From the NCBI RefSeq assembly GCF_000155675.2, contig NC_020911.1, positions 2,284,501 through 2,348,500 on the forward strand: a stretch of DNA of 64,000 bases, in the 5' to 3' direction. Under the pieces are notes generated by a model. It was given only the letters and a program-made list of their open reading frames with translations, searched no databases and was not told the DNA's origin. This stretch comes from Octadecabacter antarcticus 307 (GTDB lineage Bacteria > Pseudomonadota > Alphaproteobacteria > Rhodobacterales > Rhodobacteraceae). The position numbers were made by a program, and so were the translations under genes. Of the stretch, positions 18,504-63,831 are shown piece after piece. Numbering within the stretch: position 1 is the first letter of the stretch; each line of letters begins with the position of its first letter.

Positions 18504-18683
18504 TCTGCTCCGAAAGAAAACTTCCTGCGCGCCCAAGTAAGTTCAGGTGGTTTTGTACATTCATTTAGTTTTGATTGGAAGATTAAGGCAAGCTAAAAGC
18601 TTGTTGATTCCATCATGCGACTTACCACGGGCTTTGTTGCACAAATCGCCCTTATGGCGTGCTTCCCCTGACCCCTGACGGAT

Positions 18684-19655
18684 TCAGCCTACAGTAACGG
18701 TGTTTGGGATGCCAAGGGCGGTGAAGCCGTTGAGTATCGCGGCACGGATTTGGACTTCCGCAACTTGCCGGTCAAAGTCTCGTGCGGCCAGGCGCTGCCC
18801 GAGTAGTTTCAAACAATGCATCTTTGTCTCAACACGACTCCTGCGGTGGTATCCGCTCAAGCGACGCCATTGAGCGCGGCCGAGATCCTTTGAGGACTGT
18901 ACCGCTTCGTTTCGGGCTCTGGCCCCCAGCGTATCCGGCTTCCATAGCTTGGCATTCTTGCGTGGCGGGATGACAGCACGGGCATTGCGGGCCGCAATCG
19001 CATCATGGCATTTGCGGGTGTCATATGCCCCATCTGCTGTGACACTGCCAATCTTCTGATCTGGTGTGATCTGACCGAGAAGGTTGGGCAACATGGGTGG
19101 GTCTCCAATGCTGCTACTCGTCACTTCGACCGCGCGTATCTCCAACGTTTCTTCATCAATCCCTATATGTATCTTGCGCCACACCCGACGTTTCGGCCCG
19201 CCATGCTTGCGAGCGTTCCACTCACCTTCGCCCTCAACTTTGATGCCGGTACTGTCGATAAGGAGGTTTAGCGGGCCCTTTGAGCCCTGATACGGGATGG
19301 TAACCGATAGCCTTTTCTGACGCCGACATAACGTGCTGAAGTCTGGGACCTCCCAGTCAAGGTCGATCAATTTCAACAGGCTTTCCACAAAGCCCGTCGC
19401 CTGCCTCAAAGGCATTCCGAACAGCACTTTCAACGTGAGACAGGCTTGGATCGCCGCATCGCTATAGCGTGGCTGGCGGCCCCGTTTGCCCCCCTCTCAT
19501 GGTTTGCAAACAAACCACTGCCGGGCAACGGTAGGCGCAGCTTTCCAAGTGACCTCTGGGTTAAACCAAATGGTCAGTGACCCGCGTCGCTTCAGGGCCT
19601 TGTTATACTCAGGCCAGTTCCTCGTGCGGTAAATCGGGGCGATAGGTTTACTCAT
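18684..19655 (-). pseudogene. IS5 transposase interrupted by a hairpin mini-element
   Basis: Starting at the ATG (19655) the frame reads MSKPIAPIYRTRNWPEYNKALKR, then SLTIWFNPEVTWKAAPT. It then runs through foreign residues VARQWFVCKP and a TGA stop, before resuming GKRGRQPRYSDAAIQACLTLKVLFG. The DDE-type core is otherwise intact, with LLIDSTGIKVEGEGEWNARKHGG, VTADGAYDTRKCHD and HRRSRVETKMHCLKLLG. Removing the 39 bases at 19491-19529 would restore the family reading frame exactly. The element has therefore been silenced by that insertion. Confidence 0.85.
19491..19529 (+). repeat. Double-hairpin mini-element, copy A
   Basis: The insertion opens CCCCTCTC. A stem TGGTTTG, loop CAAA and stem CAAACCA follow, then CTGCCGGGCAA and CG. 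It lies inside the IS5 transposase gene, adds 39 bases and brings in a TGA stop. The flanking codons join cleanly if it is removed. Confidence 0.75.
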
Positions 19656-19741
19656 GACGCCAGCTACCATGCTGGATTTACAACATGAATCCCTGATACG
19701 AGACTATTTGTGCAACAAAGCCCCCTGGAACCGTTTTGGTC

Positions 19742-53373: not shown

Positions 53374-53416
53374 CCCGCTGCCCGGCAGTTGGTTGCAAGG
53401 CAATCAATGAGAGGGG
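53374..53416 (-). repeat. Double-hairpin mini-element, copy D
   Basis: Read on the minus strand: CCCCTCTCA, stem TTGATTGC, loop CTT, stem GCAACCAA, then CTGCCGGGCAG and CGGG. One wobble-type mismatch occurs in the eight-pair stem. It faces copy B, 25 bases away, with a small GCGGTTTTGACCGC hairpin between them. Confidence 0.75.
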
Positions 53417-53441
53417 CCTGTTTGCGCGGTTTTGACCGCTG

Positions 53442-53486
53442 CCCCCCTCTCGGCAGATTGCTACGCAATCGCCTGCTGGGCAACGG
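53442..53486 (+). repeat. Double-hairpin mini-element, copy B
   Basis: CCCCCCTCTC, then GGCAGATTGC, loop TAC, GCAATCGCC, followed by TGCTGGGCA and ACGG. It lies 38 bases beyond the stop of the IS110 transposase gene. Confidence 0.75.
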
Positions 53487-53693
53487 ATGGGTTCCGCAGA
53501 CCAAGTCCCTTACAGCTTAGCGGGCTATATCGCCCGGGACTTTCGACGGGGTGTCCTGGTTTTGGCGGCAGACTTATGCACCATCATCTCGTGGGTCTTG
53601 CTAACTCTTTGTTCTTCCTCTCTTAAGTAATGTGCGTTGTATAAGGTTCGTTGCGCGTTAAAACGGCCCAGACGATCCTTGCCGTTTTATTGG

Positions 53694-53707
53694 CCCCTCT
53701 CGGGCAG
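53694..53707 (+). repeat. Minimal 14-base mini-element relic, copy G
   Basis: CCCCTCTCGGGCAG sits in the IS110 transposase frame between codons of VATVAIA and the expected NKTARI. Only the two conserved flanks of the mini-element are left, joined without the variable stem. It shifts the reading frame. It may be a deletion or excision product. Confidence 0.55.
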
Positions 53708-53858
53708 CGATAGCGACGGTTGCGACGCGCGCGGGTTTTCGTTCCAGCAGTGATGTCAGCCACTTGCTTGCTCGCTCCGGGTGCGACTTGGTCTGTCGGA
53801 CGAGTGATGTCATGCTAACGACCAGCAATGATCGTAAGTATTGATCACCCATTCACTG

Positions 53859-53959
53859 CCCCCTCTCACACATGCTGTGCATGTGTTGCCCGGCAACGGG
53901 ACAGGGTATTGCGTCACGCCATGGGCGTGCTTGCAGCACGACGCAATGTCCCGAGAGGG
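53859..53959. repeat. Composite mini-element, copy C (101 bases)
   Basis: The plus strand reads CCCCCTCTCA, stem CACATGC, loop TGT, GCATGTG, then the palindrome TTGCCCGGCAA. A branched structure follows: GGGACA and ATTGCGT close on ACGCAAT and TGTCCC, enclosing CACGCC-ATG-GGCGTG and GTGC-TTGCA-GCAC. It ends GAGAGGG. The whole has mirrored CTCTC ends and reads as two elements sharing one central palindrome. It interrupts the IS110 gene between RIT and MGDQYL. Confidence 0.75.
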
Positions 53960-54106
53960 TTGTAATGCGCCCGAGTTTCTCTTTACCGCCGCTGGATTTG
54001 TTCGCGGGCGTCAACCCCAACCATGCTGCAAACTCGCGGCCATTGCTGAATTGATGGCCATCACCAATGCTGGCGATGATCGCCGAGGCTGTCACAACAC
54101 CAACGT

Positions 54107-54147
54107 CCCACTGCCCAGCAGGGCATGTTTACATGCCCGAGAGCGGG
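54107..54147 (-). repeat. Double-hairpin mini-element, copy F
   Basis: Minus strand: CCCGCTCTC, stem GGGCATGT, loop AA, ACATGCCC, then TGCTGGGCAG and TGGG. It interrupts the IS110 gene between IPALGHV and TASAII. Confidence 0.75.
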
Positions 54148-54480
54148 AATAGTGCGCAACAAACGGACCCGCACATCTTCCTTGGCGACCAGCTTGAGCC
54201 GATCTTCATACCACCGAATCCGTACATGCAATGCCATGAGATGTTCGCATAGATTATGGATCACTTCCTTGGCAATTTCGGGCAAGTCTAGCACTTCGCC
54301 TACTAAAACATCCTCTGCAAATCCGATGATCCTCGCGAGGCCCCTCGCGATGTAAACGCCGAACTCAGCGACCAGGCCACGCAAGCTATTGATCAGCTGC
54401 GTGCGTTGGCGGACAAGCAGAGCCCGTGTGCGATGGAGTGACAGCAGATCTTGTTGCTAAACGGTTTTTGCAACAAACCG

Positions 54481-54502
54481 CCCTCTCGGTGAATGCAAGC
54501 TT
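54481..54502 (+). repeat. Mini-element copy H, left half
   Basis: CCCTCTC, GGTGAA and loop TGCAAGC, ending CTT at the IS3 boundary. The right half is at 56997-57012. Joined through one CTT they give the stem GGTGAA/TTCACC and the palindrome TGCCGGCA. Confidence 0.75.
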
Positions 54503-54565
54503 TGGTCTTGTCACGGTTTAGTTCCGGTCTCTTTCGAACAATGTTTGCTATGAAGGAGATAGAAA

Positions 54566-54841
54566 ATGGCAAAGAGATACACAGATGAGTTTCGGCGTGA
54601 TGCGGTGCGGATGGCGACGACCAGTGGTTTAACGCGGCCGCAACTTTCATCTGACTTAGGGGTTGGCGTTTCGACGCTGAACAAATGGGTTCAACAGCAC
54701 CAAAATGATGATCTGATGTCAGGGCCGCATGAGGATGTCGAGAAAGAGAACACGCGGCTTCGCAAGGAAGTACGGCTGCTTCGCGAGGAGAGGGAGATAT
54801 TAAAAAAGGCCACCATCTTCTTTGCAGGCCAAAATCGATGA
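54566..54841 (+). CDS. IS3 transposase OrfA
   Basis: A 91-residue helix-turn-helix protein: RYTDEFRRDAVRMATTSG, LGVGVSTLNKWVQQHQ, then a leucine-zipper-like ENTRLRKEVRLLREEREILKKATIFFAGQ. It overlaps OrfB by four bases (ATGA). It appears intact, and could bind the element's ends although OrfB is broken. Confidence 0.9.
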   Translation: MAKRYTDEFRRDAVRMATTSGLTRPQLSSDLGVGVSTLNKWVQQHQNDDLMSGPHEDVEKENTRLRKEVRLLREEREILKKATIFFAGQNR

Positions 54842-55510
54842 GATTTGCTTTCATCGACGCTTGGAAGGAAGAATGGCCAGTTGAGCTTCTGTGCAAAGTT
54901 ATGCAGGTCACATCGCGTGGTTTCCGCGCATGGCGGGTTCGCCCGATGAGCCAACGCCAACGAGACGATATGGTGATCTTGGCACATATCCGTGAGCAGC
55001 ACCGTTTGAGCCTAGAGAGTTACGGGCGGCCACGCATGACTGAAGAGTTGCAGGAAGAGGGCCTGAACGTCGGGCACCGCCGCGTGGGGCGTTTGATGCG
55101 TGAGAATGACATCAAGGTTATGAGAACCCAGAAATACAAGGCGACGACGGACAGCAACCACACGTTCAACATCGCACCCAATCTGTTGGATCAGGATTTT
55201 TCTACCACTGGCCCCAATCAAAAATGGGCAGGTGACATCAGCTCCATATGGACCAGTGAAGGCTGGTTGTATCTGGCCGTCATCCTTGATCTGTACTCCC
55301 GCCGCGTCATCGGTTGGGCGGTCAGCAATCGCATGAAACGGGACTTGGCGATCCGGGCCTTGGACATGGCAGTAGCCTTGCGACAACCGCCGAAAGACTG
55401 CATTCATCATACGGATCGTGGGTCGCAATATTGTTCAAACGAGTACCAAAAGCGCCTGAAACAACACAGCTTTAAGGTGTCGATGAGCGGCAAGGGCAAT
55501 TGTTATGATT
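54838..55510 (+). pseudogene. IS3 transposase OrfB, first part
   Basis: Catalytic rve-fold subunit, reading RAWRVRPMSQRQRDD, YGRPRMTEELQEEG, KWAGDISSIWTSEGWLYLAVILDLYSRRVIGWAVS (first two catalytic acidic positions) and HHTDRGSQYCSNEYQKRL. It breaks at GKGNCYD where IS110-B enters. The last catalytic glutamate lies in the second part at 56774. Confidence 0.88.
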
Positions 55511-56773
55511 GTGAGTATGGTATTGCGGCTTGATGGCCTGACCCATGTTACGATTGACTGCGTGTCATTGTATTGACGTGTCGACCGTCAAGTCGCCCCG
55601 GCGACGGGTGAGATGTGACCTCATAGGAGCATGACGGGGACGCCCCATCACAGTCCTGTCCTCTCAGAATGTTGCCTGGGCATTCTCAACCTAAGGGGAC
55701 AACATGAAGATCAGACATCCAATTATCATCGGCATCGATACGCATAAGGCAACACATGTTGCTGTCGCGATTGATACGCAAGGCACCCGCCTAGCAGCAC
55801 TTTCCATCCCTGCGAACTCAAAGGGATATCTGGAACTGGAACGCTGGTCTTGTGGCCTGGGTCATGTCCAAGCTTTTGGAATCGAAGGGACGGGCTCTTA
55901 CGGTGCCGGTCTATCGCGCTGCTTGCTTGCACAAGGGCACCATGTTGTTGAGGTTACGAGACCCAATCGCCAGCTGCGCTATACTCAAGGCAAGACCGAC
56001 AGCCTCGACGCAGAAGGTGCCGCTCGGTCAGTTTTATCTGGACAGGCAAATTCCCGCCCTAAAACCCAAACGGGATCGTCGGAGATGATCAGGCATCTGA
56101 AGATAGCCCGTGACACGGCTGTTAAGTCACGTTCACAGGCGATGGTGACCCTGAAAACACTGATCATCAATGCACCAGCTGATCTGCGTGAAGTACTGGA
56201 TCAGATCAAAGGTAAGATCGGATTGATCCGGCATATCGCGGCCTTCAGACCCGGTGATATACTTAATACATTAGCTTCTGCCAAAGCAGCCATGCGAGCT
56301 TTGGCACGACGGTGGCTATTGCTACATGAAGAGATTCTGGGTCACGATAAAGAACTGGAGCGACTTGTCATCAAACGCGCTCCGGACCTGATGCAATCCC
56401 ACGGAATTGCGACAATGACAGTCGCAGAGATGCTAATCCTCGTTGGCGATGATCCCACGCGCATCCGATCTGAGGCTGCATTTGCCAAACTCTGTGGCGT
56501 TTGTCCCATCCCTGCATCAAGTGGGAAAACGCACCGTTTCCGTCTCAACAGAGGAGGAAACAGACAAGCCAACGCTGCGCTCTACCGTGTCGCCATCGTC
56601 AGGATGCGCAGCCACGAACCGACGCTTGCTTATGTCAAAAAACGTACGAAAGATGGCAAAAGCAAAAGCGAAATCATTCGATGCCTGAAGCGTTACATCG
56701 TCCGGGAGATTTACAGCCAACTCTGCGTGCCACAAACCATCAAAATTGCTGCTTGACGAATATAGGAGCTTCA
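55511..56773 (+). mobile_element. IS110-family element B, inside IS3 OrfB
   Basis: The OrfB reading resumes after this 1.26-kb segment, so its approximate limits come from rejoining GNCYD with NSMVETFF. It has one intact transposase gene and no visible inverted ends, as expected for IS110. No mini-element is present in it, in contrast to IS110-A. Confidence 0.8.
55704..56756 (+). CDS. IS110 transposase B
   Basis: An intact 350-residue DEDD-type transposase. The N-terminal domain has IIIGIDTHKATHVAVAIDTQG and GTGSYGAGLSRCL, with VTRPNRQLRYTQGKTDSLDAEGAARSVL (DEDD acidic residues). The C-terminal domain has MTVAEMLILVGDDPTRIRSEAAFAKLCGVCPIPASSGKTHRFRLNRGGNRQANAAL with its conserved serine. The ATG follows AGGGGAC. 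It is the only complete transposase in the nest and the youngest arrival. Confidence 0.93.
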   Translation: MKIRHPIIIGIDTHKATHVAVAIDTQGTRLAALSIPANSKGYLELERWSCGLGHVQAFGIEGTGSYGAGLSRCLLAQGHHVVEVTRPNRQLRYTQGKTDSLDAEGAARSVLSGQANSRPKTQTGSSEMIRHLKIARDTAVKSRSQAMVTLKTLIINAPADLREVLDQIKGKIGLIRHIAAFRPGDILNTLASAKAAMRALARRWLLLHEEILGHDKELERLVIKRAPDLMQSHGIATMTVAEMLILVGDDPTRIRSEAAFAKLCGVCPIPASSGKTHRFRLNRGGNRQANAALYRVAIVRMRSHEPTLAYVKKRTKDGKSKSEIIRCLKRYIVREIYSQLCVPQTIKIAA

Positions 56774-56958
56774 ACTCCATGGTTGAGACATTCTTCAAAT
56801 CCATCAAGGCTGAGCTGATCTGGCGTAACCGATGGGACACACGTCGTCAGGCAGAAGGCGCGATATTCCAATATATCAACGGGTTCTATAACCCAAGGCG
56901 GCGGCATTCGTCGCTGGGCGGCAAAAGCCCCTTGGCATTCGAACGAAAGGCCGCATAA
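56774..56958 (+). pseudogene. IS3 transposase OrfB, second part
   Basis: It reads NSMVETFFKSIKAELIWRNRWDTRRQAEGAIFQYINGFYNPRRRHSSLGGKSPLAFE, the end of the IS3 integrase core with its last catalytic glutamate. It joins the first part without loss once IS110-B is removed. Confidence 0.9.
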
Positions 56959-56996
56959 ATAAGTTCAGAGACCGGAACGCAAGCGGGACAAGACCA

Positions 56997-57012
56997 CTTC
57001 ACCTGCCGGCAA
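56997..57012 (+). repeat. Mini-element copy H, right half
   Basis: CTTCACCTGCCGGCAA completes the stem and second palindrome of the element begun at 54481. The repeated CTT is the IS3 target duplication. Confidence 0.7.
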
Positions 57013-57368
57013 TGATCGTCGGACGGGTCACCGCTTCACAAATCGCCTCTGCATCGATCGCATCAGACTTGCCGCGCTTAACGTATGGCTTGACATATAT
57101 CGGCGGGATCAGCCGAACATCATGGCCCAACGCCGTGAGTTCCCGGGCCCAATGATGCGCGCTGCTACAGGCCTCCATGCCAATCAGGCAGGGATCAATC
57201 TTGGAGAAGAACGGCAATAGCTGTGCGCGTCTCAAAGGCCGGTTGAAGGCGACCTCTTCGTCTTCAGTGATCCCATGAACTTGAAAAATGTTCTTGGCCA
57301 ACCTCTCAGCGATTGCTGCGCATTCGCCTGCTGGTCGATGGATCAACGCCGATTGTGGTAACTTGCAT
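56999..57368 (-). pseudogene. IS110 transposase A, N-terminal part
   Basis: From ATG 57368 the frame gives MQVTTIGVD. Forty foreign bases follow, then LAKNIFQVHGITEDEEVAFNRPLRRAQLLPFF, DPCLIGMEACSSAHHWARELTALGHDVRLIPP and KPYVKRGKSDAIDAEAICEAVTRPT. This is the DEDD domain of the same family as the part at 53525-54502. It continues there after mini-element H and the IS3 insertion. Confidence 0.85.
57302..57341 (+). repeat. Double-hairpin mini-element, copy I
   Basis: CCTCTCA, stem GCGATTGC, loop TGC, GCATTCGC with one mismatch, then CTGCTGGTCGATGG. It interrupts codons 9-10 of IS110 transposase A, between GVD and LAKN. Confidence 0.65.
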
Positions 57369-63310: not shown

Positions 63311-63512
63311 TAGTCTCAGGACCCATTAAACCACTTGATGCTACTATGGCTGCGTGATTGAAAGTCCCAAAGTTTGGGGGTTAGAATAAGCAATCTTTAT
63401 TGGCTGAGTGAAGCGCAGATGGAACGGCTTCGGCCTTACTTTCCGAAGAGCCGAGGCCGTGCACGCGTAGATGATCGCCGCGTCCTGAGTGCCATTATTT
63501 TCACTAACCGCA

Positions 63513-63593
63513 ACGGGGCGAATGACGGTTCGGGCCGCGGGCCCGATGAAACGTCCAGTGGACGTTTCAAGGCATGAACGGGCGGAGCCCCGT
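63513..63593 (+). repeat. GC-rich palindromic element, second family
   Basis: Eighty-one bases bounded by ACGGGGC and GCCCCGT. Inside are CGGGCCGCGGGCCCG and GAAACGTCC-AGT-GGACGTTTC, both near-perfect palindromes. It interrupts the transposase between RNG and LRWCD. It shares neither end motif with the CTCTC family. Confidence 0.7.
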
Positions 63594-63737
63594 CTGCGGT
63601 GGTGTGATGCGCCTGCCGAATATGGGCGGCCAAAGACTTTGTATGATCGTTGGAAGCGCTGGAGTGACATGGGTGTGTTCGCCCGGATCATGATGGGACT
63701 GGCCGAGCAGGCCCCAGACAATAAGACAATTTCGATC

Positions 63738-63775
63738 CGCTCTCATCGAAACTGTGTTTCGACTGCCGGGCAGCG
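63738..63775 (+). repeat. Double-hairpin mini-element, copy E
   Basis: CGCTCTCA, stem TCGAAAC, loop TGT, GTTTCGA, then the palindrome CTGCCGGGCAG and CG. The preceding C gives CCG to pair with the final CGG. Thirty-eight bases, inserted between ATTTCGATC and GACGCTAC of the transposase gene. Confidence 0.8.
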
Positions 63776-63831
63776 GACGCTACTTACCTCAAGGCACACC
63801 GCACGGCTTCCAGCCTGGGGCTAAAAAAAGG

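Follow-up and report, generated by a model that had tools for sequence, protein, structure and literature searches.

Short Hairpin Elements Inserted in Transposase Genes of Octadecabacter antarcticus 307 and Other Rhodobacteraceae

INTRODUCTION

Several described kinds of DNA invite comparison with the short hairpin elements reported here. Miniature inverted-repeat transposable elements (MITEs) carry terminal inverted repeats and usually a target duplication, and fungal mitochondrial double-hairpin and bypass elements are tiny double hairpins inside genes. Rickettsia palindromic elements are ~150 bp long and lie in frame in metabolic genes, according to the available part of the source (PMC10969869), and repetitive extragenic palindromes (REPs) are extragenic and bear GTAG or CGTC tags, again according to the available part of the text (PMC3733652). 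Here, we describe mini-elements of 34-45 bp that were noticed in a 64,000-base stretch (bases 2284501-2348500, hereafter the window) of the 4,812,600-base contig of Octadecabacter antarcticus 307, whose two-contig genome measures 4.88 Mb. A first-pass annotation made from the letters of the window had proposed at least nine copies, most of them interrupting the transposase genes of insertion sequences (ISs).

For strain 307, the published count is 626 transposable-element genes, of which 265 are pseudogenes, with one gene and 14 pseudogenes for IS1182, one and 16 for IS481, and 14 and none for IS200/IS605 (PMC3646047, available part). Term searches found neither "repeat" nor "palindrom" nor "hairpin" in the available main text of that paper, and no Rhodobacteraceae genera in the text of PMC3733652; no paper on such elements in Rhodobacteraceae was found among those listed by searches of the open-licence literature.

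RESULTS

Family Size and Distribution

The mini-element family is real and far bigger than the window shows. The pattern CCCTCTC, 8-38 bases, CTGCYGGGCA has 292 matches in the genome of strain 307 (forward 154, reverse 138), and the same pattern read backwards, which served as control, has none. Within the window, CCCCTCTC alone occurs 5 times against 1.15 expected, a count reached in 0 of 100 shuffles. A covariance model was built on 30 copies out of a diverse, script-selected set of 34; none of the 30 comes from the window, and two members (L003, L009) are other copies of ISs also found there. The model recovered six window copies at E<1e-5. In its search of the genome, the best 150 of 3743 candidates were scored, all 150 below E 0.01, and the 292 exact matches are for that reason the better genome count. 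The copies first noticed are thus accompanied by hundreds more.

At least one match to the pattern occurs in 101 of 295 genomes sampled from the family Rhodobacteraceae, the highest counts below strain 307 being 30, 24, 17, 13, 12, and 11, and the reversed control gave one match each in seven of these genomes by our own count; part of the single matches are chance occurrences lacking the stem (e.g., L033, L034, L036, L043, L056). At genus level, 10 of 19 genomes have matches: 292 in strain 307, 44 in another large genome, and 0-6 in the remaining 17. One element type alone is present in 101 public plasmid records, of which the 60 listed all belong to the Roseobacter group by name, and plasmids of Dinoroseobacter shibae and Ruegeria pomeroyi carry the element. 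Phage sequences gave one partial match only. Among the matches listed from a bacteria-wide scan, many have no stem and convincing copies outside the Rhodobacteraceae, by name, are few. In three hosts outside the family by name (L084, L069, L160; Table 1), the elements lie within transposase-type genes, which suggests IS-borne spread between bacterial families.

Anatomy and Folding

The consensus plan is C-CCCTCTC, a first hairpin of variable sequence, CTGCCGGGCA, and RYG. From CCCTCTC through RYG the element measures 34-45 bp, and many lengths are not divisible by 3. Among the fetched loci the first hairpin has 176 distinct sequences, 172 of them 17-23 bases long. Stem pairing is kept by paired changes although the hairpin sequence varies so widely. 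Among the 44 sequences of the 21-base class, pairing exceeds the level obtained with shuffled partners at seven of the nine stem pairs, and the other two are near invariant; 39 of the 44 have a bulged A at position 4. In the 30-copy alignment, 53 cells had changed on both sides of the stem; shuffled partners gave 21.1, and none of 500 shuffles reached 53. The number of pairs showing such change was 6 against 5.7 when shuffled, i.e., no excess. Unpaired cells made up 18.5% of that alignment, mostly because its columns do not keep the bulged class in register.

Across the classes of 17-25 bases, 1292 stem cells comprise 1191 Watson-Crick, 38 A-C, 18 G-T, and 45 other combinations. An A-C combination on the written strand corresponds to G-T on the opposite one, so that the bottom strand seems to keep its pairing better; in sequences that are related, this is a lean towards that strand as the folded one. 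None of 4227 Rfam families matched the element at or above its gathering score; a sub-threshold isrB match (E 0.41) overlaps one copy (L223).

Insertion Sites and Target

The elements are clean insertions, in both orientations and without target duplication. Unique sites with a stem and an RYG end (231) were compared against all fetched loci for element-free homologues, which exist for 138; within 12 columns of the junction, 98 of these comparisons have no gap, 34 have one, and 6 have more, and no target duplication was seen. The 98 gap-free empty sites have C (60%) before the insertion point and, after it, G (72%), A (63%), Y (84%), G (56%), and R (74%), a target near C^GAYGR. When the base left of the insertion was compared between empty and filled sites, 25 of 26 differences went to C, so that the first C of the element often seems to replace that base. 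The clearest case is the transposase gene of an IS3 of ~1.2 kb, in which seven elements sit, one of them reversed relative to the other six, when an intact homologue from a Falsihalocynthiibacter plasmid serves as reference; the junction match is ragged by 1-2 bases for two of them, the second and the reversed one. Two pairs of copies of the interrupted IS3 (A/B and C/D) carry different elements at one nucleotide, which means either independent hits or replacement. Covariation between element and target, as a guide sequence would produce, gave no clear signal: the best element-target z was 6.2, and target-target values from related sites reached 11.2.

Genomic Context

Most sites lie in IS genes. 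Compared with loci of other genomes, joined six-frame translations gave matches spanning the junction at 52 of 65 sites in strain 307 (8 flank only, 5 none) and at 79 of 112 sites elsewhere (11 flank only, 22 none), in a set that still contained some false elements. After 28 sites without an RYG end had been dropped (177 to 149), 121 of 149 matched a transposase library, 95 spanning and 26 flanking. This library comprised transposase-labelled clusters and six further frames, and its two window frames were later confirmed as IS110 and IS3. The matched sites include 51 of 58 in strain 307, where the 58 unique sites come from the listed part of the 292 matches, and 70 of 91 elsewhere; the seven unmatched sites of strain 307 lie in IS110-, IS481-, and IS21-like DNA on our own reading. 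In five further genomes, 49 of 64 sites matched the library, 13 matched other loci only (several of them transposase-looking), and 2 matched nothing.

Pfam assigned clear transposase or IS-gene domains to 19 of 40 representative homologous fragments, a sub-cut-off helix-turn-helix only to 2, other domains to 3, and none to 16, the 3 others belonging to chance elements (L056, L136, L151) or flank-only sites (L087, L128). At least nine IS families are hit by this measure: IS3 (rve), IS4/IS5 types (DDE_Tnp_1, DUF4096), IS1182 (DUF772), IS110, IS91, IS256, IS6, IS21 (IstB, in the flank), and IS630; IS481 is also hit by our reading. Among 20 fragments at unmatched sites, L027, L070, L185, and L187 have transposase domains, L060 a receptor-type domain, and L121 HTH_3, and 14 have none. 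The 114 spanning sites divide into 67 and 47 by orientation and 51, 23, and 40 by phase. The phases are uneven; the target may often fall on transposase Asp codons. Locus L345 holds ten element-like copies, with one mismatch allowed per end, in ~2.2 kb of IS-rich DNA (about 150-2320).

Fate of Interrupted Insertion Sequences

The IS5-type IS interrupted in the window (Table 1) has 22 near-identical copies in the genome; every match runs through the element, and there is one variable site. The 15 copies found with the anchor used have 15 different flanks. The same 16-base ends are found in four relatives (79% identity), both relatives read contain a 310-aa frame, and the one scanned has DDE transposase domains. 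With the same ends and such a frame, intact relatives could move the broken copies, which suggests that interrupted ISs are mobilised in trans. For the seven-insert IS3 there are 4 copies, and their ends are sharp.

Change after insertion is near neutral, with silent changes slightly in excess. Besides small indels, eleven copies of an IS481-like sequence with two inserts show 13 replacements, 1 stop, and 10 silent substitutions, where the neutral expectation is 0.69, 0.03, and 0.27, and the interrupted IS3 shows 5 replacement and 4 silent changes. A plain open-frame test across the junction was uninformative in this GC-rich DNA. Among IS1182 copies, the ratio of replacement to silent substitution rates (dN/dS) was 0.06-0.16 in 19 of 21 pairs and 0.25 and 0.44 in the other two. 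In strain 307, the IS1182 copies L304-L310 are mosaics in which some tracts are identical and others diverge strongly (up to ~7-9 differences in 25 columns), which indicates that IS copies often exchange sequence. Because of this exchange with diverged copies, the low dN/dS is no evidence of function, and an intron-like reading of it was rejected, the elements lying in recently shared tracts of mosaic copies.

Copies in the Window

Six of the nine places named by the first-pass annotation are firm (E<1e-5); the copy at 53694 is weak (E 0.68), and the split copy at 54481/57012 and the one at 57302 were recognised by eye only. Element-free homologues uphold its statement that the transposase frame continues beyond the element, and homologous ISs elsewhere lack the element at the same place. 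The location in ISs that it had described likewise holds across genomes, with the qualification that some copies in other genomes are intergenic. A later insertion of the IS3 family separates the two parts of the copy at 54481/57012. The 53374/53442 pair is found with equal spacing at six more places in the genome, and, given this recurrence and the element-free homologues, it sits in repeated, IS-like DNA; no Pfam domain was found on fragments homologous to its surroundings, nor in the window frame 54064-54384.

Table 1. Mini-elements and associated features, with window positions where a range is given; E is the covariance-model E-value.
Feature	Position or locus	Strand	Details
IS5-type IS, 1093 bp	18630..19722		16-bp ends GGCTTTGTTGCACAAA; minus-strand transposase gene interrupted at 19491; longest frame left 249 aa
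Mini-element	19491..19530	+	Hairpin ATGGTTTGCAAACAAACCA; E 3.1e-10
Mini-element	53376..53416	-	Hairpin ATTGATTGCCTTGCAACCAA; E 1.8e-10; repeated IS-like DNA beside IS110-like gene; element-free homologues via L009
Mini-element	53444..53485	+	Hairpin with bulged A (GGC-A-GATTGC..GCAATCGCC); E 4e-9; same repeated DNA as 53376; element-free homologues via L009
Degenerate or minimal copy, uncertain	53694..53720	+	E 0.68
IS110 transposase part (Pfam)	53856-54095	-	
Mini-element	53860..53898	+	E 9e-6; minus-strand frame here is IS110 transposase part
Composite partner of 53860 copy	to near 53959		Inverted element-like stretch ending CGAGAGGG; read by eye
Mini-element	54109..54146	-	E 9.2e-7; in broken IS110-like gene region; element-free homologues via L009
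Left part of split mini-element	54481..54498	+	Right part near 57000-57014; by eye, no model report at E<=1
IS3 transposase (Pfam)	54838-55530		
IS110 part (Pfam)	57002-57346	-	Below Pfam's own cut-off
Degenerate mini-element	57302..57340	+	At IS110 transposase part; by eye, no model report at E<=1
IS5-type part (Pfam)	63489-63821		Below cut-off
Mini-element	63737..63775	+	Hairpin ATCGAAACTGTGTTTCGA; E 2.3e-7; in IS5-type transposase (DUF4096); similar site in L021 has element-free homologue in L061
Copy outside family by name	L069		Cohaesibacter; end AGG instead of RYG
Copy outside family by name	L084		Vreelandella
Copy outside family by name	L160		Labrenzia

Elsewhere in the window, the minus strand of 25883-26147 matches the Ruegeria Trans44 small RNA family with 161 bits.

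DISCUSSION

Proposed Mechanism

We hold it somewhat likelier than its negation that these are non-autonomous mobile elements of ~34-45 bp, moved by a recombinase supplied in trans and using ISs as landing ground and vehicle. Such a recombinase would recognise the folded strand, perhaps by the bulged base that the longer hairpins carry 3 bp above their foot, with the bottom strand favoured as the folded one, and the folded strand would be joined into single-stranded or nicked DNA. ISs would be both the preferred place to land and the means of transport, as the transposase of intact same-ended relatives would move the interrupted copies; the element could therefore multiply and cross genomes without coding for anything. 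A further-reaching proposal, less likely than not, is that the ~40-bp element is new in kind and that a structure-reading recombinase seeks IS DNA of any family, the element being either the smallest known mobile DNA, landing in ISs and carried by them, or the mark of a bacterial system that tags and disables transposons.

Several observations weigh against mobility by a trans-supplied recombinase. No moving enzyme or autonomous form was found, as neither Y1 transposases nor reverse transcriptases explain in which genomes the elements occur, and the short target does not explain the preference for ISs. The bottom-strand lean amounts to 56 mismatches in related sequences. No recognisable target duplication surrounds the 4 copies of the interrupted IS3, 93 of the 231 sites have no element-free homologue, and elsewhere the comparison with the fewest gaps was the one kept. 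Intergenic copies also exist, in G108, Leisingera ANG1, G075, and a Paracoccaceae metagenome-assembled genome, among them L221-L226 (G108), L128, L093, and L360 (G075).

These intergenic copies lie past gene ends and are embedded in a longer stretch common to them, of the form GGGAGCCTC, element, GGnCGGGAGTTTATTTnGCAAGATGA or close to it, which is possibly an insertion into a host intergenic motif or possibly the ancestral form. The longer form had no match in 100 genomes, G108 not among them, with a pattern whose stringency was probably excessive, and relaxed searches for this host motif gave few loci.

Alternative Explanations

One alternative is a passive safe haven: elements would insert at random at C^GAYGR, copies elsewhere would be purged, and those in ISs would survive through IS multiplication and spread. 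Interrupted ISs do multiply, and group II introns also live in ISs. Seven insertions in one IS3 of ~1.2 kb and the ten element-like copies of L345 are hard to reconcile with this, as is the transposase match of 51 of the 58 unique sites in strain 307, because neutral intergenic DNA should catch a good share; none of the 58 was shown to be intergenic, in a comparison that did not survey intergenic DNA itself. We consider a safe haven rather unlikely.

Descent from an IS200/IS605-type (Y1) element, moved single-stranded next to a short target, would account for the lack of target duplication, the short one-sided target, and the hairpin with its bulged base. Y1 matches occur in 13 of 100 genomes, with the most (24) in strain 307, and pattern matches are found in 8 of the 13 genomes with Y1 against 32 of the 87 without, as counted by eye and with chance singles included. 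This origin is nevertheless improbable: the ends of seven IS200-like copies of strain 307 look different from those of the element, for which reason IS200 ends were rejected as the parent, and genomes with 24, 11, 9, and 9 pattern matches have no Y1_Tnp match, a point that also tells against the trans-supplied recombinase.

We give similarly poor prospects to retro-insertion, the copying of an RNA into a nicked target by reverse transcriptase. RVT_1 is present in 7 of 7 genomes with at least nine pattern matches and in 28 of 93 others (100 searched), groups that were picked post hoc and in which the match of G064 is barely above cut-off. The enzymes of these genomes share at most 38% identity, save for two copies of strain 307 at 92% (11 loci), and reverse transcriptases were rejected as partner for want of a close common relative; since they are not close relatives, the RVT_1 count is read as a load of mobile DNA, which may itself explain it. 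The wobble lean, moreover, falls on the strand opposite to such an RNA. Locus L428 (G000:C2:1870308-1872222, in strain 307) has two reverse-transcriptase frames side by side, in which the motifs FADD and YVDD occur.

Silencing of ISs by a host system, through insertion of elements into their genes, would fit the at least nine unrelated IS families hit and the strain-specific abundance (292, 44, and 0-6 in 17 genomes of the genus); interrupted ISs kept multiplying and no candidate gene was found, and silencing of this kind is hardly probable. Least probable is an intron-like or bypass element, tolerated through RNA removal or translational skipping: interrupted transposase genes have multiplied, some otherwise intact, and silent changes are slightly in excess, but insertion in both orientations and all three phases and near-neutral change after insertion in IS481 and IS3 argue against introns.

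Significance

If ISs of every family are chosen, some process tells IS DNA from host DNA, and such a choice, if true, would represent a new path taken by selfish DNA or else a novel transposon defence. This could be tested in tractable marine bacteria with element-bearing plasmids, such as D. shibae and R. pomeroyi. In addition, the family may explain many transposase pseudogenes for which annotation offers no cause, and it illustrates how small mobile DNA can be.

Comparison With Known Systems

Palindromic mini-elements inside protein genes recall those of Rickettsia, which the first-pass annotation had named among the nearest parallels. The likeness is poor: the Rickettsia elements, at ~150 bp and in frame, occupy host genes (PMC10969869, available part), whereas the present ones measure 34-45 bp, have lengths that often break the frame, and lie mostly in IS genes. 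REPs, with their REP-associated tyrosine transposases (RAYTs, of the Y1 type), are similar in being short many-copy hairpins, possibly moved as folded single strands. The mini-elements differ from them in having no GTAG or CGTC tag in the 30-copy alignment, in matching the transposase library at 121 of 149 sites instead of being extragenic (an intergenic subgroup exists), and in occurring in several element-rich genomes that have no Y1 match.

With MITEs the mini-elements would share a non-autonomous nature and multiplication by enzymes supplied in trans, but their ends, CCCCTCTC and RYG, are not inverted repeats and the 138 comparisons showed no target duplication; as for a parent transposon with shared ends, the seven IS200-like copies examined have different ones. 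Unlike the fungal mitochondrial elements, they are inserted in both orientations, and nothing suggests bypass. Group II introns in transposase genes are comparable for their clean insertion and their use of ISs as a haven; the mini-elements differ in their size of ~40 bp, the absence of an Rfam match, and the absence of any sign of splicing. Integron attC sites act as a folded strand with extrahelical bases, to which the bulged A in 39 of 44 sequences of one length class and the apparent bottom-strand lean may be compared. By kind, then, these are short palindromic non-autonomous elements, yet they lack those hallmarks of MITEs, REPs, and Rickettsia palindromic elements that were checked. Few known pieces of mobile DNA may be smaller, and there is a fair chance that the principle by which they move is new.

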